A stretch of DNA of 64,000 bases, taken from assembly GCF_001693255.1 (NCBI RefSeq), contig NZ_CP016474.1:1692661-1756660 (forward strand). The letters are read 5' to 3'. Positions 3,396 through 14,796 of the stretch are shown here, in pieces. Below the pieces are notes generated by a model. That model was not told where the DNA came from. It ran no database searches and saw only the letters and a list, made by a program, of their open reading frames with translations. Source of the DNA: Picosynechococcus sp. PCC 7003. Its GTDB lineage: Bacteria; Cyanobacteriota; Cyanobacteriia; Cyanobacteriales; MRBY01. Position 1 is the stretch's first letter. Each line of letters starts with the position of its first letter. The position numbers and the translations under genes are program-made.

Positions 3396-5024
3396 ATGGT
3401 TTTTTCTCTGACCCAGAGCAGTTCACGCCAACGGGAAATTATTGAAATTGTCTTCAGTAATGGTTGGGACTTCATGAAGAGTCTCCTGACCGGTGGCAAG
3501 GCCGATAAACCACAGATTCCCCCCCCTGAAGTTTTTCGCAATATTCTGGTGGAGCTTGGGCCTTTTTATGTCAAGCTCGGACAGCTTTTGAGCACTAGAC
3601 CCGATCTTTTGCCACCTAAATACATTGAGGCCCTCACGGCCCTCCAGGCAAAAGTCCCCACGGTGCCTTGGTTTGAAATCGAGCAAACCATTCGCCAGCA
3701 ACTCTCCAGCCCCCTCGAAGATGTTTTTCAAGAAATCAATCCAAATCCCATTGCAGCGGGTTCCATTGCCCAAATCCATCGGGCGGTTTTGCGGAGTGGT
3801 CAAGCTGTCGCCCTAAAGGTGCAGCGGCCAGGCATTGATCAAATCGTCGCCCAGGACATTGCCCTGATCAAAGGGATTGCGGAACTCGCGGCTTTAACAG
3901 AATTTGGTCAAGATTATGATGTGATTGCCCTTGCGAAAGAATTTACCAAGGCTGTCCAGGCGGAACTCGATTTTCGTACCGAAGCAGGTTACACCGATCA
4001 GCTCCGGCGCAATTTGGCAAAAAGCAGTTGGTTTGATCAACAAAAACTGACAATCCCAGAAATTTATTGGGAGCTGACCACCGAAAAGCTGCTGGTCATG
4101 GAGTGGCTCGACGGCAAACCTTTGCTTGAAGCGGAGGTCACTTCAGAAAAACAACGTCAAGCAATCACCACAATTTTGTTTCGGGCCTTTTTCCAGCAAA
4201 TTTTTGTGGATGGTTTTTTCCACGCCGATCCACACCCCGGTAATATTTTCTACCTCGATAGTCAGACGGTAGCGTTAATTGATTGTGGAATGATTGGCCG
4301 CCTTGATCCGCGCACCCAGAAACTGCTGACAGAGATGCTGCTGGCCATTGTGGATATGGATGCCCAAAGCTGTGCTCAGTTGACCCTTGAACTCTCTGAA
4401 GGTGCTCATACGACGAACATCGCCCGCCTAGAAGCCAACTACGATCGCCTGCTGCGTAAATATTACGACCGGAGCTTAACGCAACTGAATTTTAGTGAAG
4501 TGTTTTACGAAATTTTGCAGGTGGCCCGCAATAATAAGGTCAAACTCCCAGGAAATTTGGGTTTGTATGCCAAAAGTCTTGCCAATTTAGAGGGGGTCGC
4601 CCGTAGTTTTAACCCAGAAGTTAATTTACTCGATGAGATTAAGCCCCTGATCACTGATATTTTCCGGCGGCAATTGGTGGGAGATACCCCGTTTCAAACC
4701 ATGTTCCGCACGGTACTCGATCTCAAAACGATCTCTTTGCGATCGCCGCGACAAATTGACGTGATTCTCGACCGCCTCAGCTCAGAAACCCTCCAGTGGA
4801 ATTTAAACCTGCGGGAGCTCGATGGCCTGCGCCGCAGCATTGACGACTCTGCCAATCGCCTTTCCTTTAGCATTGTGGTGGGATCTTTAATCATGGGGGC
4901 CGCGATCATCACCATTTCGCCGAACCGTCAGTTAATGATTGTGAATGAAATTTTGTTTGCAGCGGCCAGTCTTTTAGGATTGTGGCTAATCATTAGTATT
5001 TTGCGGTCAGGACGCCTAAAGTAA
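3396..5024 (+). CDS. ABC1/AarF/UbiB-family atypical protein kinase
   Basis: A 542-residue member of the UbiB/ADCK family, atypical kinases or ATPases needed for isoprenoid quinone metabolism. Hallmarks seen: the KxGQ motif in YVKLGQLLSTRPDLLP, the Ala-rich nucleotide loop in AAGSIAQIHRA, the invariant Lys in VALKVQRPG, the catalytic-loop equivalent in FFHADPHPGN and a metal-binding DCG. Two hydrophobic segments close the protein, as is typical. In cyanobacteria several paralogues affect plastoquinone, tocopherol or stress responses; which one this is cannot be told. ATG 3396 is preferred over an in-frame TTG at 3351. Confidence 0.92.
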   Translation: MVFSLTQSSSRQREIIEIVFSNGWDFMKSLLTGGKADKPQIPPPEVFRNILVELGPFYVKLGQLLSTRPDLLPPKYIEALTALQAKVPTVPWFEIEQTIRQQLSSPLEDVFQEINPNPIAAGSIAQIHRAVLRSGQAVALKVQRPGIDQIVAQDIALIKGIAELAALTEFGQDYDVIALAKEFTKAVQAELDFRTEAGYTDQLRRNLAKSSWFDQQKLTIPEIYWELTTEKLLVMEWLDGKPLLEAEVTSEKQRQAITTILFRAFFQQIFVDGFFHADPHPGNIFYLDSQTVALIDCGMIGRLDPRTQKLLTEMLLAIVDMDAQSCAQLTLELSEGAHTTNIARLEANYDRLLRKYYDRSLTQLNFSEVFYEILQVARNNKVKLPGNLGLYAKSLANLEGVARSFNPEVNLLDEIKPLITDIFRRQLVGDTPFQTMFRTVLDLKTISLRSPRQIDVILDRLSSETLQWNLNLRELDGLRRSIDDSANRLSFSIVVGSLIMGAAIITISPNRQLMIVNEILFAAASLLGLWLIISILRSGRLK

Positions 5025-5137
5025 ATATCCCCTGGGTGATGAAATCTAGAAAATTGCCCCAGGCAGAACAACCAAGGGATACTATAGAAAATGGCCTTGA
5101 CCTTTGGCATGAATTATCGCTCTGATTAGAATTCATT

Positions 5138-5884
5138 ATGCTCTCCACCCTCCTCGCCGACTTCCGCATTATTTTTGAACGGGATCCCGCTGCGCGTAAC
5201 TGGCTTGAAGTTTTATTTTGCTATCCGGGCCTCCAAGCACTGCTGTTCCATCGCGTGTCCCATGCCCTCTATCGCTCTGGTCTGCCGTTTATCCCCCGAT
5301 TTCTCTCTCATATCGCTCGCTTCTTAACAGGAATTGAAATTCATCCAGGTGCCCGCATTGGCCACGGAGTTTTTATTGACCATGGCATGGGCGTTGTGAT
5401 CGGTGAAACGGCCATTGTCGGCGACTATTGTTTGATCTACCAAGGTGTTACCCTTGGCGGCACGGGGAAAGAGAGTGGCAAACGTCACCCGACCCTCGGT
5501 GAAAATGTGGTAGTTGGTGGGGGGGCTAAGGTACTCGGCAATATTGAAATTGGGAATAACGTGCGCATTGGGGCCGGGTCAGTGGTCTTACGCAATGTGC
5601 CTTCGGATTGCACGGTGGTCGGCATTCCGGGGCGGATCGTCTATCGTTCTGGGGTCAAGGTCAATCCTTTGGAACACGGCAGCTTACCTGATTCGGAAGC
5701 AACGGTAATTCGTACTCTCTTAGACCGCATTGAGGCCCTAGAAGAGCAAGTCCAAACTCTCCAAGGTCAACAGCAGCCAGATCTCGTCACAGCCCACCAT
5801 CGTCAACATACACAACATACAAAAGATAGCTGTCGCTTGTCTGACCGGGAAATTCAACAATATTTGGATGGTGCAGGGATTTAA
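5138..5884 (+). CDS. cysE: Serine O-acetyltransferase CysE
   Basis: Transfers acetyl from acetyl-CoA to L-serine, the first step of cysteine synthesis, in the cytoplasm. The N-terminal helical domain (RDPAARNWLEVLFCYPGLQALLFHR) is followed by left-handed beta-helix hexapeptide repeats. Active-site segments IHPGARIG, IDHGMGVVIGETA and GGTGKESGKRHP are intact. The 248-residue length is ordinary except for a ~45-residue Gln/His-rich tail ending in LSDREIQQYLDGAGI, often seen in cyanobacterial CysE. The C-terminal Ile that inserts into CysK in other bacteria is present. It is monocistronic in appearance. Confidence 0.95.
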   Translation: MLSTLLADFRIIFERDPAARNWLEVLFCYPGLQALLFHRVSHALYRSGLPFIPRFLSHIARFLTGIEIHPGARIGHGVFIDHGMGVVIGETAIVGDYCLIYQGVTLGGTGKESGKRHPTLGENVVVGGGAKVLGNIEIGNNVRIGAGSVVLRNVPSDCTVVGIPGRIVYRSGVKVNPLEHGSLPDSEATVIRTLLDRIEALEEQVQTLQGQQQPDLVTAHHRQHTQHTKDSCRLSDREIQQYLDGAGI

Positions 5885-5959
5885 GATTCAGGTGCAGACC
5901 AATTCATTTGATCAATAAAAATTTTGATCTGAATTCCTTAAAGCAAAAGGCTTTCGAGC

Positions 5960-6220
5960 ATGGAGTTTGAGTTTTCTCACCACGCCCTAGAAGAAAGTAA
6001 AAAGCGTGGGATTCCTCTCGAATTAGTTGAGGCAGTTCTTGCCAATCCCCAGCAAGTTTTTAAACAGAATGAAGCAATAACGGTTTATCAATCCCAGGTT
6101 ACTTTCGACAATGGCAAAAAGTATTTAATCCGTATTTTTATGAATACGATGGTTGATCCCAAAAAGATTGTCACCCTCTACCGCACGAGTCAAATTAAAA
6201 GATATTGGAGAGTCGAATGA
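5960..6220 (+). CDS. DUF4258-type protein, possible toxin of a two-gene module
   Basis: An 86-residue protein starting FSHHALEESKKRGIPLELVEAVL and ending with ITLYRTS-like text (VTLYRTSQIKRYW). This matches the small DUF4258 family, which has a RelE/BrnT-like look. Its stop codon overlaps the start of the next gene (ATGA at 6217-6220), so the two are translationally coupled. Pairs of DUF4258 and DUF2283 genes are common in cyanobacteria and are suspected, not proven, toxin-antitoxin modules. Confidence 0.8.
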   Translation: MEFEFSHHALEESKKRGIPLELVEAVLANPQQVFKQNEAITVYQSQVTFDNGKKYLIRIFMNTMVDPKKIVTLYRTSQIKRYWRVE

Positions 6221-6447
6221 AAATTAAATATGATCCTGAAGTTGATGTGTTATGCATCACCTTAAAAGATGTAGATATTGAGGAAAGTGGTGAAGAAAAT
6301 CCTGGCATTATCCTCGATTATGATCGAAAAGGGCAGGTGATTGGTATCGAGATTTTACAAGCCTCAAAACGTATTGACAACCCCCAGGCCATTGAATATC
6401 AAATCCTACCAACATCGATGGAAACGATGATAGAACCAGTGACTTAG
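6217..6447 (+). CDS. DUF2283-type protein, possible antitoxin partner
   Basis: A 76-residue acidic protein with the DUF2283 signature: KIKYDPEVDVLCITL at the start and GIILDYDRKGQVIGIEILQAS in the middle. The ATG at 6217 overlaps the TGA of the DUF4258 gene. An in-frame start at 6205 exists but the overlapping ATG is the usual arrangement and fits the family's N-terminus. Acidic composition suits a protein that neutralises a basic partner; this is inference. Confidence 0.82.
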   Translation: MKIKYDPEVDVLCITLKDVDIEESGEENPGIILDYDRKGQVIGIEILQASKRIDNPQAIEYQILPTSMETMIEPVT

Positions 6448-6487
6448 TGCCTCGTAATATTATTAGTAAAAGCCAGACCAAACTTCC

Positions 6488-6958
6488 CTAAAGACTATTT
6501 AAGAAGTCGTCATCTAGTTCGTAACCTAATAGCTGGGCGATCGCCTTTACCCGTAACTGGGGTTGAATGCCGAATTTCGGTAAAGTCTCACTGAGGCAAA
6601 ACACTTTGTTCATCACAAAAATTTCGAGGGCTTCGGGGTTATATTGAATCCCTTCGGTGCGATGAAATTGATGGGGAACGAGCATCGCCGTATAACGGCC
6701 TAATTCCCCTGCTTTCCAGTCGAGGAGAAAGGGAAACCAGGGAAAGATCGCATCGAGGCGCACAAACCAGAGACGAATTTCTGGGATTTCTGAGAGTTCG
6801 CGTGGGTCGTTTGCTTCCTGGGGAAAATCAATCTTTAACTGAAACTTTTGCTCATGGTCTGCGAGGGCCTCATCGAGCAAGATCGATTGTACCAGGGTTT
6901 TCAGGGGGGCCAAATTAAGACTAAGGATGTCGCGTTGGGGAATTTTGATCTCTGCCAT
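6488..6958 (-). CDS. crr6: CRR6-type NdhI maturation factor (DUF1817)
   Basis: A 156-residue protein with the strongly conserved block ELSEIPEIRLWFVRLDA, then WFPFLLDWKAGELGRY, AMLVPHQF and TEGIQYNPEALEIF, which I recognise as the Chlororespiratory Reduction 6 family. Plant CRR6 and its cyanobacterial homologue assist maturation of NdhI, an Fe-S subunit of the photosynthetic NDH-1 complex. ATG 6958 was chosen because MAEIKIPQRD begins the family-like sequence; the frame is open further upstream but overlaps the ABC gene. It lies 11 bases after the ABC ATPase gene and is probably cotranscribed with it. Confidence 0.87.
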   Translation of the reverse strand: MAEIKIPQRDILSLNLAPLKTLVQSILLDEALADHEQKFQLKIDFPQEANDPRELSEIPEIRLWFVRLDAIFPWFPFLLDWKAGELGRYTAMLVPHQFHRTEGIQYNPEALEIFVMNKVFCLSETLPKFGIQPQLRVKAIAQLLGYELDDDFLNSL

Positions 6959-6969
6959 GGTTGCTTTGG

Positions 6970-7989
6970 TCAACAGTCTTCCCATTGTAAAGCTTGGAGA
7001 TGGGTGCTGAGCGCCCCAAGGCTCGTGAATTGCATTTGGCGATCGCCCTGGGACAAAATCCAGCAGGTGGGCTGCTCCTGGAGATCGAGGCGCAATGGAC
7101 AAGGCGTTTGTACCGCTTCAAAGCCCAGACGGGTTAAGGCGCGTTCTGTCCAGGTGGCCGCCAAGCCTTGGCCGGTGAATTGGATGGGTGATCGCCGCTG
7201 GTACTGTAGCTGAAACTGACCACTCATTTGATCAAAGTAAAAGCGATCGCTACTAAAGGTTGATCCCAAATATCCCTCTAGGGCCAATTCCTCCGGTGTC
7301 CCGACCACTAACCTTTGGCTGGGAGTAATGAGCCAGAGCTGATCTGCACTCCGCAGGGCTAAATCGAGGTCATGGGTAGACATCAAAACGGTGCGTCCTT
7401 GTTGGTGCGCCAAAAACCGCAACAATTGCATCACCTCTACCCGACGGGGCACATCGAGATAGGCCGTCGGTTCGTCCAGCAACATTAAATCCGTCGCCTG
7501 GGCCAAAGCCCGCGCAATCATTGCTTTCTGTCTTTCACCGTCGCTAATGTTGTTCAGGGGTTGGGCCTGGAGATTTGTTAAACCAACGGCGGCGATCGCC
7601 TCCCGGACAATCTGTTGATCCGTTGGCCCCAAACGCCCTTGCCAATCGGTATAGGGATAACGCCCCAGGGCAACCAGTTCCGTCACTGACATCCAAGGGA
7701 GATCAACCCGTTCTGTTAAAACCAAGCTCAGGCGTTGGGCGCGCTGGGCCGCATTGAGGGCCGTCAAGGGTGTCCCATTCAGCCAAACCTGACCCGCTTG
7801 GGGAGACTCTAGACCCGCCAATGTCCGAATCAGGGTTGATTTTCCCGATCCGTTTGCGCCCACTAAACAGACAAACTGCCCCTGGGCGATCGCCAGATTC
7901 AAATCCTGAAGTAAGGCACGCCGCTGGTAGCCCACCGTTAAATTTTCTGTCACCAATAAAGGCGCTTGGGGTTGCAATGTTACCGTCAA
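6970..7989 (-). CDS. ABC transporter ATP-binding protein, FepC/BtuD-like
   Basis: A 339-residue ATPase: Walker A GANGSGKST, signature ISDGERQK (a variant of LSGGQ), Walker B LMLLDEPTA and switch His in STHDLDLA. The order and spacing resemble ATPases of iron-siderophore, haem or cobalamin importers. About 90 residues follow the ATPase core, unusually long and without a recognised domain. No ATG is available; the TTG at 7989 gives MTVTLQPQAPLL. No permease or binding-protein gene is adjacent, so its partners must be elsewhere. Its position between a Fur regulator and CRR6, an Fe-S assembly factor, suggests metal supply (inference). Confidence 0.88.
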   Translation of the reverse strand: MTVTLQPQAPLLVTENLTVGYQRRALLQDLNLAIAQGQFVCLVGANGSGKSTLIRTLAGLESPQAGQVWLNGTPLTALNAAQRAQRLSLVLTERVDLPWMSVTELVALGRYPYTDWQGRLGPTDQQIVREAIAAVGLTNLQAQPLNNISDGERQKAMIARALAQATDLMLLDEPTAYLDVPRRVEVMQLLRFLAHQQGRTVLMSTHDLDLALRSADQLWLITPSQRLVVGTPEELALEGYLGSTFSSDRFYFDQMSGQFQLQYQRRSPIQFTGQGLAATWTERALTRLGFEAVQTPCPLRLDLQEQPTCWILSQGDRQMQFTSLGALSTHLQALQWEDC

Positions 7990-8004
7990 AGGCGATCGCC
8001 TCGA

Positions 8005-8517
8005 TTAATGGAGGTGGGTTTGGGCTTTTTCCCGCGAACAGACCCAATCATGGGGGAGTGCCGAGGGCCAACCCATCAAGCGAGCCTCCGGGCAAATGGT
8101 GGTGATCGTTAACTGGCAATCGAGTAACTCGAACCCCTGCTGTTGACATTGGGCAATGCTGTGTTTGTTGATCGCGACATCCTCAAACTCAATGGTTTTA
8201 TTGCACTGGACACAGACCAAATGGTGGTGGTGGGCTTGGGATTGGTTCAGCTCATAATGTTTATGGCCCTCTGCTAGCTCTAGCTCCCGTAAAATACCCA
8301 TGCGGGTCATGAGTTTTACGCTACGGTATACCGTCGAGAGGCTAATCTTTTCCCCTTGCTCCAATAACTCATTGTGTAAATCTTCAGCGCTGAGGTGTTC
8401 GCCCTTCGGCAAATTTAGAAAGGTGCCGAGAATTTTTTCCCGCTGGGGCGTTAACCGCCACCCCTTAGCATTGAGTTCGGTCTTAAGGGCGCTTACGTCG
8501 TAGGAAGGTACCAGCAT
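8005..8517 (-). CDS. fur: Fur-family metal-responsive repressor
   Basis: A 170-residue Fur-family protein. The winged helix includes KGWRLTPQREKIL and ISLSTVYRSVKLMTRMG; the metal-binding hinge has HKHYELN and HHHHLVCVQCN. Only the first CxxC pair (CVQC) is complete; the usual second pair is reduced to a single Cys in TICPEARLMGW, with another Cys near the end (DWVC). This pattern fits some cyanobacterial Fur proteins better than Zur or PerR, but the exact metal cannot be fixed by eye. It lies 15 bases upstream of the ABC ATPase gene, so a shared iron-related operon is likely. Confidence 0.85.
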   Translation of the reverse strand: MLVPSYDVSALKTELNAKGWRLTPQREKILGTFLNLPKGEHLSAEDLHNELLEQGEKISLSTVYRSVKLMTRMGILRELELAEGHKHYELNQSQAHHHHLVCVQCNKTIEFEDVAINKHSIAQCQQQGFELLDCQLTITTICPEARLMGWPSALPHDWVCSREKAQTHLH

Positions 8518-8693
8518 ATTTTTTCAACAAGTTCAGCTTATTGACAAGCATAAACGTCCTTTTCTACTTTTGCAACAATCTGGCTTTATTGCGAATAAAT
8601 ACCAACATTCAAGCCAGGATCCCCAAAAAAAGGCAATCGCCTGCTCTAGACGATTCCGTGAAAACATGGCCCCTGTTTTTTGACTCAGGACGA

Positions 8694-10181
8694 TCAAGGG
8701 GCCTCATCTAGTAAGGTCATCGGATCAATATATTGCTCGATGTGATTTGCGAGGGTTTCGAGGATTGCTTCTTGGCGTTCATTAAAATTGGCAATGCCTG
8801 TCGGTAGAGAAGAAAGTCCCCGTTTTTGGCGGAGGGCATTAAGCCAAAAGCGACACCAGGAACCATTATTAAACAATCCTTGTAAGTAGACGACCCAGAT
8901 ATTTTGACTTGGGTTAACGAGGCCCAGATTTGGGGTTTCAAAGAGTTGGGTATAACCGCTACTGGGAGCATAGTTCAGGATGCCACAGGGTAGGGTCATG
9001 CCACTGAGGGGAAGATTTGGAAAAGGCAGACGTGAAAATGTTTCGACAGGGAAAAGGGCGGCCTTGGTGTGGGACTGGCTAGCAAAAGGCATTAAACCGA
9101 GGGCCGGCTGAAAATCCCCACTGGGGAGGACAATTTTTTTACTGAGTAGATTGGCACCATTACCAATTCCCAACACCGTACCGCCAGCATTGACGAATTG
9201 CTGCAACTGTTGGGGATAACCATATTTATGGAGGTAGTCGAGATCGGCGATCGCCTGGTCTGTGTGGGGCACAATCACCGCATCGGGATAACAGAGGGGT
9301 TCGGTGTGATCAAGGAACTCCAAGTTCACGGAAGACTCGCCCATCAAGGGATCAAAGTCTGCATAGGATGAGAGATTGGGGAGCTGGAGCACCTGCAAGC
9401 GCAGTTTATTTTGGGGTAATTTCGTGGGATTAGGGGCGGGGAGAGTACAGAGGCTTTCGGGGTCAAAGGTGAGATTTTGAAGGGGCCGAATATAACCGAG
9501 GACGGGTCGTTTGAGATGCGTTTTCACCCATTGGCTGGTTTGGGTTTCTTGGGGGCGATCGCCTTGCCACTGATTGAAGATGACCCCCCGAATCAGTTGA
9601 CGATTTTCTGGGGAAAGCCGTTGCCAGAGGCCCCATAACTGATTAATCCCCCCTTCATGGGTGCAGTCGATCAAAATAATGCCAGCGACGGGCACCTCTA
9701 AACCCTTGAGGAGCTCAAAATTTTGGTCGGTATCGCTGGCGAGGGGATGGCAAAGACTGTCGCGATAACTATCGAATAGCAGCACGTCACAATTGGACTG
9801 CAATTCCATCAAACATTCTCGAATCAACGGTCGCGCAATATCGTAATAATTATCGTAGTAGGCCGTTCGTTTGACGGTACCAATGCCCCGCCCTTGAATC
9901 AGCAGTTGAAACTTGGGCCATGGCTCACCAGGAGGACTACAGGCTTTCAATAAAACTGGGTTGAGATGGGTTGCTGGTTGAATTTTTGCGGCCCACGCTT
10001 GCCAAGCTGACGACTGGCTGACCTCTGCGGCGGCATCTACCCGATAGCCGTCTGTGATTTCTGTTTGGCTTTGGAAAGGAACAACCCGCAACCCTTGCCG
10101 AGTTAAGGAGCGGGCCAGCGCCGTAATCAACCATGATTTTCCAGACCGACGACTAGGGCTAAAAATGGCGATCGCCCGCAT
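8694..10181 (-). CDS. CobQ-like protein with inactivated glutamine amidotransferase domain
   Basis: A 495-residue protein with the layout and length of cobyric acid synthase: an N-terminal dethiobiotin-synthetase-like P-loop domain (SRRSGKSWLITAL, then VVPFQSQ and HLNPVLLKA matching the CobQ blocks) and a C-terminal triad amidotransferase domain. The catalytic Cys expected in GICGG is Gly340 (LGIGNGANLL) and the catalytic His expected in YLHGLF is Gln434 (VYLQGLF). The PGSK-like turn is also changed (PHTDQA). The enzyme should therefore be unable to use glutamine. The frame is intact, so it is not an obvious pseudogene. It may use ammonia, have another substrate, or be a relic in a B12-auxotrophic lineage. 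Confidence 0.78.
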   Translation of the reverse strand: MRAIAIFSPSRRSGKSWLITALARSLTRQGLRVVPFQSQTEITDGYRVDAAAEVSQSSAWQAWAAKIQPATHLNPVLLKACSPPGEPWPKFQLLIQGRGIGTVKRTAYYDNYYDIARPLIRECLMELQSNCDVLLFDSYRDSLCHPLASDTDQNFELLKGLEVPVAGIILIDCTHEGGINQLWGLWQRLSPENRQLIRGVIFNQWQGDRPQETQTSQWVKTHLKRPVLGYIRPLQNLTFDPESLCTLPAPNPTKLPQNKLRLQVLQLPNLSSYADFDPLMGESSVNLEFLDHTEPLCYPDAVIVPHTDQAIADLDYLHKYGYPQQLQQFVNAGGTVLGIGNGANLLSKKIVLPSGDFQPALGLMPFASQSHTKAALFPVETFSRLPFPNLPLSGMTLPCGILNYAPSSGYTQLFETPNLGLVNPSQNIWVVYLQGLFNNGSWCRFWLNALRQKRGLSSLPTGIANFNERQEAILETLANHIEQYIDPMTLLDEAP

Positions 10182-10235
10182 GAAGCTTCCTCACATTAAA
10201 CCTAAAGATAGATGCATAGATTTAGATTGTACAGT

Positions 10236-10640
10236 CTAGATCGAAAACCGACTCAACCAACGTTGTAAACTATTTTGGAGCCGAGACAGCCATGACACCC
10301 GTAGAGCCTGGGGTTCCGCTTGCCATTGGGCTAATACCTGACGCCCCAGAGGTGTTAAACGAAAACTATCTGTCAACCCCTGACCATCGACCTCCCGCCG
10401 GAGCAAGCCCACTTGGATGAGCCACATCATCAACTCCTCCACGACTCCTTCCGTGAGCGATCGCCCGCTATAACCCGTCTGGAGTCCTGCTTCCCCAGCA
10501 ATATCCGGTAGCGCCACACTCTGATCTTTCATCGCCGCCAGCAGTTGCCATCGGAGCGGTGTACAGGCAAAGGCCACCAGTGCCCGCTGAATCGTTTCGG
10601 GAGGATATTGAATGGGCTTTGGCGTAAAAACTTGGGTCAT
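10236..10640 (-). CDS. Npun_F0494-type conserved cyanobacterial protein
   Basis: A 134-residue protein beginning MTQVFTPKPIQYPPETIQRA and containing WLIQVGLLRREVDGQGLTDSFRLTPLG, which I recall from a conserved cyanobacterial family named Npun_F0494. The middle reads like a winged-helix domain (a helix-turn-helix-like stretch followed by LTDSFRLTPLGRQVL), similar to many transcription regulators. Function is unknown. A TTG at 10667 would add nine residues; ATG 10640 is preferred. Confidence 0.7.
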   Translation of the reverse strand: MTQVFTPKPIQYPPETIQRALVAFACTPLRWQLLAAMKDQSVALPDIAGEAGLQTGYSGRSLTEGVVEELMMWLIQVGLLRREVDGQGLTDSFRLTPLGRQVLAQWQAEPQALRVSWLSRLQNSLQRWLSRFSI

Positions 10641-10939
10641 GGCAGGAACAGAAACGATTGCAATCAAACGGAATTAGTTAAATTGCATTGTATATCTTTC
10701 CCCAAAGTTCTTGATGGGGAATCCTCATCGAGCCAGCTCCTGAAATTCGTTAAAAGAAACAGACGGCGACACTTTTTGGTAGCGATATCCCTTGAAATGG
10801 TGCCATTTTCTTTGCGAGATACATCGTTTTATTGACTTTTGTTTTCTTCTCCGAGAACCCGAAAATCATTTGCGAAAATGACACTGACTGAGATCACTTT
10901 TTGATCACAAACCAGTTTTTTTTGGGAGTAAAAATACTT

Positions 10940-12466
10940 ATGAAACTTGCCTATTGGATGTATGCAGGCCCAGCCCACATCGGCACGTTACGCATTGCCA
11001 GTTCTTTTAAAAATGTCCATGCGATTATGCACGCTCCTTTAGGTGATGATTACTTTAATGTGATGCGTTCGATGTTAGAACGGGAACGCAACTTCACCCC
11101 CGTCACCGCCAGCATTGTGGATCGGAATGTTCTGGCGCGGGGCTCCCAGGAAAAAGTTGTCGATAATATTGTCCGTAAAGATCAAGAGGAACAACCGGAT
11201 TTAATTGTCCTGACCCCCACTTGCACCTCGAGCATCCTCCAGGAAGACCTCGAAAATTTTGTTGCCCGCGCCCAGTTGGATGCCAAGGGTGATGTTATCT
11301 TGGCCGACGTGAACCACTACCGGGTCAATGAACTCCAGGCCGGCGATCGCACTCTCCAGCAAATTGTCCAGTTTTATATCAATAAAGCCCGAAAACAAGA
11401 AAACCTAGCCACCGAGAAAACCCCACAACCCTCGGTAAATATTATTGGGGTCTCGACCCTCGGTTTCCACAATAACCACGACATTCGTGAACTGAAAACC
11501 CTCATGGCTGAGTTGGGGATTAGCGTGAATTTGGTCATTCCCGACAAAGCCTCCGTCCATGATTTGAAAAAGTTGCCCCAAGCCTGGTTTAACCTCGTGC
11601 CCTACCGGGAATTGGGCTTGAGCACTGCGAAATATCTAGAACAGGAATTCGATCAACCCTATGTGGACATTACCCCCATGGGCGTTGTGGAAACAGCTCG
11701 GTGCATCCGCGCGATCCAAGGGGTGATTAATGACCAAGGGGCCACAGCCGATTACGAAGCTTTCATCGAAGAACAAACCCTCCATGTGTCCCAGGCGGCT
11801 TGGTTTAGTCGTTCCATTGACTGTCAAAATTTAACCGGCAAAAAGGCGATCGTCTTTGGGGATAATACCCACGCTGCGGCCATGACAAAAATTTTGGCGC
11901 GGGAAATGGGCATCCATGTGGTGTTGGCGGGAACCTACTGTAAATATGATGCCGACTGGTTCCGTCAGGAAGTCAGTGAATACTGTGATGAGATTTTAAT
12001 CAGTGAAGATCACGGTGAAATTGCCGATGCGATCGCCTGCCTAGAACCCGCCGCAATTTTTGGTACCCAGATGGAACGCCACGTGGGCAAACGGTTAAAT
12101 ATTCCCTGTGGGGTGATTGCCGCGCCGATCCATATCCAAAACTTCCCCATTGGTTATCGACCTTTCGTGGGCTACGAGGGCACCAATCAACTTGCGGATC
12201 TGGTGTACAACTCCTTCACCCTGGGCATGGAAGACCACCTGCTCGAAATTTTCGGCGGCCACGATACCAAGGAAGTGATCACCACCACCATGTCGGCCAG
12301 TTCTGACCTGAATTGGACCACAGAGGCCCAGGGGCAACTGAACAAAGTCCCCGGATTTGTGCGGGGCAAGGTGAAGCGCAACACCGAAAAGTATGCCCGT
12401 GCCCAAGGACTGAGTGAAATTTCCCTGGAAGTGCTCTACGCCGCTAAGGAGTCTGTCGGCGCTTAA
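10940..12466 (+). CDS. chlB: Light-independent protochlorophyllide reductase subunit B
   Basis: A 508-residue subunit of the nitrogenase-like dark-operative protochlorophyllide reductase, which reduces ring D of protochlorophyllide with ChlL and ChlN. The start [23 protein letters not shown] and the blocks [15 protein letters not shown] and [13 protein letters not shown] are characteristic. The C-terminal helical domain ([26 protein letters not shown]) is complete. ATG 10940 has GGGAG nine bases upstream. chlL and chlN are not in this window, so the three genes are dispersed. About 300 bases of leader precede it, with a possible -35 TTGACT near 10834. Confidence 0.97.
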
Positions 12467-12527
12467 GCTCTGGGGAGATCTGCGCTAAAGTGAGAGGCTG
12501 ATCGCACGCTTGGTTGCTCTTTTTCCC

Positions 12528-13514
12528 ATGCTTAAAGTTGTCTTTTTCGGCACACCCCAATTTGCGGTGCCTTACCTAGAAGCCCTATTGCATTATCCAG
12601 ACATTGAAGTGCTGGGGGTGGTCACCCAACCGGATAAGCGGCGGGGCCGGGGTAGTCAGCTGATTCCGTCGGCGGTGAAAAAAGTGGTGATCGCCCATGA
12701 TCTCCCCGTCTGGCAACCGAAGCGCATCAAAAAAGACCCGGAAACCTTAGCGATTCTCGAAAACCTCCAGGCCGATGTGTTTGCGGTGGTCGCCTACGGG
12801 CAGTTGCTCTCGCCGCAAATTCTCCAGATGCCCCGGTTGGGCTGTGTTAACGGCCATGGTTCTCTGCTGCCGAAATATCGGGGGGCCGCGCCGATCCAGT
12901 GGAGCTTAGTCGAGGGAGAAACGGTGACGGGCATGACCACCATGCTCATGGATGAGGGGATGGATACCGGGGCAATGCTCCTCAAGGCCGAAACGCCCAT
13001 TGATCTTTGGGACAATGCCCATGACTTGGCAGTGAAATTAGCGACCTCTGGGGCGGCTTTATTGACGGAAACGCTTATTCAACTTGCTCAAGGGAAAATC
13101 ACTCCTGTCCCCCAGGATCCAGACCACGCCACCTATGCGCCGCTGATTCAGAAGGAAGATTTTCAGTTAGATTGGCAAAAAGGGGCGATCGCCTTACATA
13201 ACCAAGTGCGCGGTTTCTATCCCAACTGCGTCACCATCTGCCGCGATAAACCTTTAAAAGTCCTAGAAACGATTCCCATCGTGCCGGAATGTTTTGCGCA
13301 GTACCCCGCAGCATACGAACCCCTCAAAGAATTGGTTGGGAGCACAGGAAACGTCGGAGAAATTGTGGCGATCGCCAAAAAATTTGGGCCAATTATTCAA
13401 ACTGGGGACGGACTTTTATTGCTCAAACAGGTGCAACCCAGCGGTAAAAAACCCCAGTCCGGTTGGGATATGGTCAACGGGATGCGCTTAACCGTGGGTG
13501 AGTGCTTGACCTAA
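12528..13514 (+). CDS. fmt: Methionyl-tRNA formyltransferase
   Basis: Formylates the amino group of Met-tRNA(fMet) using 10-formyl-tetrahydrofolate, for translation initiation. The N-terminal formyltransferase fold has [15 protein letters not shown], the basic loop in [16 protein letters not shown], and the active-site region [18 protein letters not shown] with DEGMDTG. The C-terminal tRNA-binding domain has [13 protein letters not shown]. Length 328 residues is normal. ATG 12528 was chosen over an upstream in-frame start at 12510 because the family begins at LKVVFFGTP. It lies 61 bases after chlB in the same direction. Confidence 0.96.
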
Positions 13515-13530
13515 GCCCGTTGCGAGCCAC

Positions 13531-13567
13531 AAAAAAAGCCCCAGGCCTATGCACCTGGAAGCTTTTG
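13531..13567. terminator. Bidirectional hairpin terminator between fmt and the Deg protease
   Basis: An inverted repeat pairs AAAAGC-CCAGG with CCTGG-GCTTTT around a loop CCTATGCA. It has an A-run on its left and T-rich bases on its right, so it can end transcripts from both converging genes. Confidence 0.75.
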
Positions 13568-13596
13568 GAGAAGAAACAATGAACAATCAGAAAAGT

Positions 13597-14796
13597 TTAA
13601 GAAACGCCTTCCATTTGCGCCGTTCTGACAGTGATCTCTGAGGTGCGATCGCCCCGACGGATTTCGAGCTTCAGGTTGGCATTGATACCGCTCTTTTCAA
13701 CGGTTTCCTGGAGTTGTTGGGCATCGGCGATCGCCTTACCATTGATTTTCGTGATTACATCGCCCCGACGCAGGCCAGCTGTTTCTGCTGGACTACCCGG
13801 CACCACACCCAGCACTAGCGCGCCGTTCACTTCCGGTAATAGCACGATGGAATTGGGGTCAGCGTTATTTTCCTTGGCCATATCCGGTGTGAGGCTTACC
13901 ATCCGAATCCCAATGAAGGGGTGGGGGACTTCTTTCCCAGCAGCGAGGGTGGGTTCAAGATCCTTGGCTTTGTTGATCGGGATTGCAAACCCAATGCCCA
14001 TCGCATCCCGACGGATCGCGGTGTTAATCCCAATCACTTCACCGTCGGAGTTAAGGAGGGGGCCACCGGAATTACCAGGGTTAATGGCGGCATCGGTCTG
14101 GAGGAAATCGACGCGCTTATCGGGAATCCCCGCCTGGGCCGAAGACCGCTCCAGGGTACTGATGATCCCTAGGGTAACGGTATTGTTCAGACCAACCGGA
14201 TTACCGACGGCGATCGCCCAGTCACCCACCTGCACAGCCCCAGAATCACCCAGGGGAGCCACGGGAATAGACTCACTTTTAGGGTCAATTTTCACGACCG
14301 CGAGATCGGTTACTTCGTCGGTGCCTTTTACTTCCCCTTCGAAGCTACGACCATCTTTTAGCGTGACAGTTACTTTATCGGCACCACTGACGACGTGGGC
14401 ATTGGTCAGAATCACCCCCGAGCGGTCGGTAATAAACCCAGATCCCTGGCCAGTGACCACCTGACGCTGTTCATCGGGCATCTGTAGACCAAAGCGATCG
14501 CCAAAAAATTCCCTGAAAAACGGATCATTCATAAACGGGTCTTGGAAGCGGCGCACAACGGTTTTTTCCGTATCGATCCGGACCACTGCTTGACCGGTTC
14601 TGGCCACCGCATCGGCTACAAAACTACGACCTGCCTGCACCGGCACCGCCGCCACTTCCTGGGGAGGCTTAGTATCGGCCAGGGGTTGGTCAAGGGTTTG
14701 GCTAGAGCCTTGCAACGCCCCGAAGGTAATGGCACAGCCCACACAGAGGGCAACAATGTGGGTTGTAAATCGTTGGACAAATTTTGATCGTCTCAT
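13597..14796 (-). CDS. HtrA/Deg-family serine protease with one PDZ domain
   Basis: A 399-residue trypsin-like protease. A signal or anchor segment (HIVALCVGCAITFGALQG, ~13-30) directs it out of the cytoplasm. The triad is His134 (TNAHVVSG), Asp164 (TDLAVVKID) and Ser243 (INPGNSGGPL). One PDZ domain covers ~285-390 (VPGSPAETAGLRRGDVITKINGK). This is the size and layout of cyanobacterial HhoA, HhoB and HtrA, which handle misfolded proteins under heat and light stress; which one cannot be decided by eye. ATG 14796 gives a good signal peptide. Confidence 0.93.
   Translation of the reverse strand: MRRSKFVQRFTTHIVALCVGCAITFGALQGSSQTLDQPLADTKPPQEVAAVPVQAGRSFVADAVARTGQAVVRIDTEKTVVRRFQDPFMNDPFFREFFGDRFGLQMPDEQRQVVTGQGSGFITDRSGVILTNAHVVSGADKVTVTLKDGRSFEGEVKGTDEVTDLAVVKIDPKSESIPVAPLGDSGAVQVGDWAIAVGNPVGLNNTVTLGIISTLERSSAQAGIPDKRVDFLQTDAAINPGNSGGPLLNSDGEVIGINTAIRRDAMGIGFAIPINKAKDLEPTLAAGKEVPHPFIGIRMVSLTPDMAKENNADPNSIVLLPEVNGALVLGVVPGSPAETAGLRRGDVITKINGKAIADAQQLQETVEKSGINANLKLEIRRGDRTSEITVRTAQMEGVS

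Follow-up and report, generated by a model that had tools for sequence, protein, structure and literature searches.

The CobQ-like protein and its closest described relatives

Cobyric acid synthase (CobQ/CbiP; NF001989 and TIGR00313) is the described system to which the gene studied here stands closest. No solved two-domain CobQ structure was recovered by profile search, at which the matches were GatD, PdxT, dethiobiotin synthetase (BioD) and other GATases, and the profile of the N-terminal domain alone gave just one weak, ParA/MinD-like match among solved structures. Enzyme-derived pseudoenzymes that are retained as regulators or scaffolds form a known general class. In the literature searched, which did not cover Perez et al. 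2016 on PCC 7002, we found no pseudoenzyme-type case for CobQ, and no mention of missing CobQ residues or of a second CobQ role.

The window analysed here, a stretch of 64,000 nucleotides from Picosynechococcus sp. PCC 7003 (genome G000), carries a CobQ-like gene at 8694–10181 on the minus strand. Based on its reading frame, domain matches and predicted structure, we refer to its product (495 aa) as a degenerate type-1 CobQ-like protein. The frame has 495 codons with no internal stop, and both domains of the CobQ fold, the P-loop synthetase and the GATase, are recognized by Pfam (GATase_3, 51.5 bits with a cut-off of 27; CbiA, 30.5 bits with a cut-off of 25.4) and visible in the predicted structure (mean pLDDT 87.4). 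Synteny with a gene of the Npun_F0494 family and a tree position within type 1 identify it as an ortholog of the active cyanobacterial cobQ. It resembles CobQ/CbiP in its full-length match, its two domains and its syntenic position. On the other hand, the full-length alignments to the two NCBIfam equivalogs scored below both cut-offs (229.6 vs. 273 bits and 222.1 vs. 309.9 bits), the protein lacks the Cys, the His, the first Gly of the P-loop, K37, N40, EGAGSP and N146, and no pathway surrounds the gene.

In the predicted structure, the P-loop domain aligns with BioD (1dbs; Z 18.0, rmsd 3.6, 217 aligned), a resemblance of fold only; the Lys that we take to correspond to the catalytic Lys of BioD is lost in the window protein. 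The modelled C-terminal domain aligns with the class I GATases PdxT and GatD (4wxy, Z 19.4, rmsd 2.6, 185 aligned; 6fqb, Z 19.2, rmsd 3.0, 209 aligned) and, unlike them, lacks the nucleophile Cys and the His. The protein is similar to known pseudoenzymes in that the fold and the nucleotide-site residues are kept and the catalytic residues lost under purifying selection.

We examined the catalytic positions against 99 aligned canonical type-1 CobQs, all of which have Cys and His in columns 340 and 434. In the window gene, codon 340 is GGT (9162–9164), encoding Gly within LGIGNGA, and codon 434 is CAA (8880–8882), encoding Gln within YLQGLFN. The initial annotation of this gene had described a complete 495-codon frame with two recognizable domains and without the catalytic Cys and His, all of which holds; however, it understated the damage, as the synthetase domain is hit as well. 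The P-loop reads SPSRRSGKS (residues 8–16; 10134–10160), at which GKS is retained and the first Gly is replaced by Ser. Residues 37–40 (10062–10073) are QSQT rather than the KGQN of active CobQs, and in the segment that reads EGAGSPAEIN in active CobQs (residues 137–146; 9744–9773) an Asp stands as the acidic residue with the remainder gone. In terms of columns invariant in 99/99 canonical proteins, K37 is changed to Gln, N40 to Thr, E137-G-A-G-S-P to D-S-Y-R-D-S, and N146 to Pro. G14, K15, S16, E53, D172 and N203 are retained in the same alignment. Residues 442–463 (8793–8858) form a conserved C-terminal motif, WxRxWLNxLRxxRGLxxLxTGI (all these positions are on the minus strand). With K15, S16 and N203 kept but the first P-loop Gly lost, the protein may or may not still bind a nucleotide; N203 is presumably the base-recognition Asn of the nucleotide site.

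A sequencing error at Cys340, which had been considered at the outset, is ruled out, as two other genomes, G001 and G002 (Picosynechococcus sp. PCC 7117), likewise have Gly and Gln. As also stated initially, no cobalamin genes flank the gene: none were found among the ORFs at about 5000–14500 by ORF reading, with a profile search for the nearest four genes. No riboswitch was detected near it, and Rfam finds just two tRNAs across the whole window. Elsewhere in this region, a FecE-like ABC ATPase (6970–7989, minus strand), downstream of a Fur-family gene, extends about 90 residues past its matched ATPase domain.

We are inclined, with moderate confidence, to read the window gene as a vertically inherited cyanobacterial type-1 cobQ that would no longer make cobyric acid and that would be kept for a second, non-amidation role.

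CobQ types and probable repeated loss of catalytic residues

A survey of 291 genomes of the phylum (≥95% complete) revealed CobQ in 143, 142 of them of the same class or nearer, and CbiB in 138. In a tally of presence only, 385 of 389 genomes had a CobQ match; a strong one was seen even in G462 and G468, members of family f8 with very small genomes (1.4–1.5 Mb). We read 140 CobQ proteins from the fetched loci; of a first set of 60 relatives, 30 were covered at once and 12 of the other 30 later. These were 99 canonical type 1 and 10 divergent type 2 proteins, all with Cys and His; 15 from family f41 (15 genomes read), every one of which has the Cys, and 14 of which have the His, the exception being the broken frame of locus L146; 14 degenerate type 1 proteins; and two others, from genome G018 and a non-class outgroup. 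Duplicate loci (L038–L042, L044, L048 and L049) and a pseudogene (L057) were set aside, and L146 and the non-class outgroup L148 were left out of the invariant-residue counts. In L146 (G292, 759–2873) the CobQ match ends at model position 352, at which the frame breaks, and a second ORF covers positions 386–487, possibly due to a frameshift or a sequencing error. Among contigs of named genomes, 80 of 556 confirmed relatives were kept, and 78 of these had Cys and His; the two exceptions were PCC 7117 (Gly, Gln) and the Limnothrix sp. RL_2_0 MAG, G003 (Cys, Arg).

The degenerate proteins fall in four lineages: the genus of the window (g1), family f6, genus g10 of family f10, and family f36. Eight genomes with both CobQ types were examined, and in all eight type 2 is intact and type 1 is full length but without the Cys. 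The replacing residue is Asp in G010 (f6); Ala in G014, G042 and G320 and Ser in G232 (all g10); and Gly in G162, G085 and G092 (f36), the last three of which have lost the His as well. Further two-match genomes (G358, G381, G391, G401, G410 and G365) lie outside this count, and so do G392 and G402 from the genus of G018. The initial annotation had overlooked this recurrence in other families with a second CobQ. Its suggestion of a retained, perhaps re-purposed relic was right in direction, and the parallel cases strengthen it.

Type-1 cobQ was absent or broken in a few genomes. In G174 (2.8 Mb) it is a pseudogene with nine stops, cbiB is broken and the neighbouring Npun_F0494 gene is open (L057, G174:C1:133500-138500), and in G219 and G304 only type 2 was found, with no type 1. 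These three genomes indicate that type-1 cobQ can be lost and that some lineages can do without a putative second role. Those lineages that retain the degenerate gene under constraint presumably do so for a reason.

The catalytic residues may have been lost once or in each lineage separately. The degenerate copies cluster in the tree of CobQ proteins (support 0.955), which is the pattern that long branches tend to give. With the AU test on this tree, neither a degenerate clade (p 0.265) nor the pairing of g10 with L056, a member of its family (p 0.472), was rejected, and a basal position of f36 was rejected (p-AU 0.012). The sequence trees do not prove one loss or four. It is possible, although improbable in our view, that all the degenerate copies go back to one ancient paralogue, already degenerate, which was passed on by descent or transfer, as the clustering and the AU results would allow. 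However, the average distance of each degenerate lineage to canonical proteins is smaller than that to the remaining degenerate ones, with a tie in f36, and only 5 derived columns are common to these lineages. The degenerate copies also sit at the ancestral locus next to Npun_F0494, the tree of which rejects a clade of g1, f6 and f36 (p-AU 0.026). Moreover, G149, from the family of g10, has a single canonical type 1 with no second match, and the replacement residues differ (G, D, A and S). Taken together, these comparisons make separate losses in place the better reading with good confidence.

B12 pathway and constraint on the degenerate gene

We searched 30 genomes for the remaining cobalamin pathway. 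CbiD (PF01888), CbiB (PF03186) and CbiA (NF002204) were each found in 23 of the 30, which is 23 of the 24 outside the genus, and each was absent from all six genus genomes, that of the window included, and from G018. No second CobQ was detected in the window's genome at E values up to 10. These were the two checks proposed with the initial annotation, and together with the purifying selection described below they support its view of a retained but re-purposed relic. A CbiC-type gene, at G000:C1:564107-564670 in the window's genome, is retained as a single copy in 6/6 genus genomes, and at least two matches were obtained in 20 of the 24 relatives searched outside the genus. CobS was present in 30/30 genomes; in the window's genome it lies at G000:C1:2949810-2950517, and all six genus genomes and G018 retain it despite the loss of CbiA, CbiB and CbiD.

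As CbiA, CbiB and CbiD are missing, neither the substrate of CobQ nor a use for its product is expected in the genus, judging from what is known of the pathway. In line with this, PCC 7002 and PCC 11901 are reported to be cobalamin auxotrophs. CobA, CobQ and CobS are counted as the remaining "salvage" enzymes in PMC7205611, in passages that do not consider the active site. In G018, which lacks CbiA, CbiB, CbiC and CbiD, CobQ retains the Cys and the His but has KGENMASD instead of KGQNMALN; this gene (L031, 3036–4517) is possibly at an early stage of the same degeneration.

The window protein is most likely not a producer of cobyric acid now. Use of free ammonia, an alternative raised initially, is disfavoured for the protein as a CobQ, because K37, N40, E137-GAGSP and N146, all invariant in the synthetase domain of canonical proteins, are gone and the pathway enzymes before and after CobQ are absent. 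A protein that has given up amidation could still bind B12, or one of its precursors, and so serve to store, traffic or sense it in cells that use B12. The ancestry from a corrinoid-binding enzyme is in line with this idea, and so is the fact that every lineage concerned is a corrinoid user or maker, with CobS in 30/30 genomes. The absence from all four lineages of N40, M41 and N146, which do not vary among active CobQs, would speak against it, and we find corrinoid handling rather unlikely.

All six genus genomes have a full-length CobQ frame (51–100% identity), and K37, N40 and the EGAGSP loop are gone from each of the six proteins. At position 340 they have G, G, G, C, C and G, and at position 434 Q, Q, Q, R, H and H, respectively. 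Since all six share the synthetase losses while positions 340 and 434 vary among them, it appears that the synthetase half was altered first, or at least by the common ancestor of the genus, and that the glutaminase half is going piecemeal.

We estimated dN/dS by simple counting (Nei-Gojobori with Jukes-Cantor). Between the window's genome and PCC 7117 cobQ gave 0.154 (bootstrap 0.104–0.215), which indicates purifying selection; the estimate, which the initial annotation had proposed to make across strains, rests here on this one pair of species, the other genus pairs being at or near synonymous saturation. Eight neighbouring genes ranged from 0.022 to 0.199 in the same pair, the top value being that of the upstream neighbour Npun_F0494. 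The dN of cobQ exceeds that of seven of these eight genes, which fits relaxed constraint as well as changed constraint. For comparison, ten pairs of canonical CobQs gave 0.034–0.242. In close but not identical genome pairs of g10, degenerate type 1 gave 0.049, 0.046 and 0.075 vs. 0.075, 0.098 and 0.081 for type 2, and in f36 the values were 0.087 vs. 0.163, with overlapping bootstrap ranges. By these comparisons of coding sequence, the dead type-1 copies are under much the same constraint as the live enzymes.

The gene could also be a functionless relic of a lost B12 pathway, merely awaiting deletion. The disappearance of CbiA, CbiB and CbiD from the genus, the variation of active-site residues among its species, the raised dN of cobQ and the pseudogene in G174 would all be in line with such decay. 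We nevertheless consider it very unlikely, as the dN/dS between the two species is low up to its upper bootstrap bound, six full-length frames persist with a confidently predicted fold, and the dead copies of g10 and f36 are about as constrained as live type 2.

Active CobQs have 92 invariant residues. All four degenerate lineages retain 27 of them (permutation mean 13.8, with all residue types treated alike), including G14, K15, D172 and N203; Gly, Pro and other fold residues tend to persist in any protein, and this accounts for part of the shared set. Nine of the 92 (N40, M41, S91, A105, N146, I173, F179, F205 and C340) are lost in all four (permutation mean 1.3). T461-G462-I463, at the end of the C-terminal motif, occurs in 14/14 degenerate vs. 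30/99 canonical proteins, in counts that ignore kinship. A new enzyme, either an ammonia-dependent ligase or another ATP-dependent enzyme with a different substrate, could account for the retained P-loop Lys, acidic residue 137, D172 and N203, but it too is very improbable, as the window protein lacks the first Gly of the P-loop, K37 and the EGAGSP loop and the replacements vary between lineages, unlike a new conserved active site.

The neighbouring gene and a possible second role

The catalytic residues are lost in at least four cyanobacterial groups that do not need the enzyme for B12, and the gene stays intact and under selection, which suggests a second job. We searched for a possible partner in the gene context. 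At 10236–10667 on the minus strand, 54 bases upstream of the CobQ-like gene and on the same strand, lies a gene for a winged-helix-like protein of the Npun_F0494 family, a conserved neighbour of type-1 cobQ. Of 148 loci with a CobQ frame, 95 have it upstream in the same orientation; this count includes duplicates and type 2, and many of the loci cover only 1.0–1.5 kb upstream. It is beside the type-1 copies in g1, f6 and f36 and beside type 2 in 0/10 loci, and 123 of the 291 genomes of the phylum survey have it. Its predicted structure (pLDDT 93.6) has a winged-helix fold, and in structural comparison of the model the top matches were ArsR/SmtB/MarR/PadR-like (best Z 9.9, rmsd 3.0, 92 aligned); Foldseek gave nothing below an E value of 0.001, the best being 1.9e-3 to SmtB.

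Neither G005 nor G018 has Npun_F0494, and G174, G219 and G304 have it but no intact type-1 cobQ. A strict partnership is thus rejected by co-occurrence, as the two genes are not strictly co-inherited, and we consider Npun_F0494 a lead, not a proven partner. A peroxiredoxin-like ORF near type-1 cobQ in 54/96 loci and a 2Fe-2S-ferredoxin-like ORF in 13/96 (e.g. L034 and L068), both named by sequence reading, were considered as well; neither is a constant neighbour.

If the degenerate gene is indeed kept for a second role, type-1 CobQ would have had that role besides amidation, and it is this role that would persist. We tentatively propose, with low confidence, that the protein may act on a partner as a nucleotide-binding pseudoenzyme. 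The kept P-loop Lys, acidic residue 137, D172 and putative base-recognition N203 would allow nucleotide binding after the loss of the corrinoid and glutamine chemistry, and the conserved surface of the C-terminal GATase domain could act on the partner, possibly the adjacent winged-helix protein, so that the pseudoenzyme would serve as a nucleotide-dependent regulator or scaffold. Even more speculatively, CobQ may be a two-job protein, both a maker of cobyric acid and a nucleotide-binding partner of Npun_F0494 that ties B12 or nitrogen status to gene expression. Only the regulatory job would then have been kept, with the catalytic residues lost repeatedly once B12 synthesis was lost or passed to the other CobQ.

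In widely used B12-auxotrophic cyanobacteria, current annotation takes this gene to encode a step that remains of B12 synthesis or salvage, which is unlikely from its sequence. Repeated cases in which catalysis is lost and the gene stays would represent a natural experiment, one that tells apart two functions of a single protein. They point to a further role for a cobalamin gene present in all 142 surveyed genomes of the class, and to its uncharacterised neighbour.
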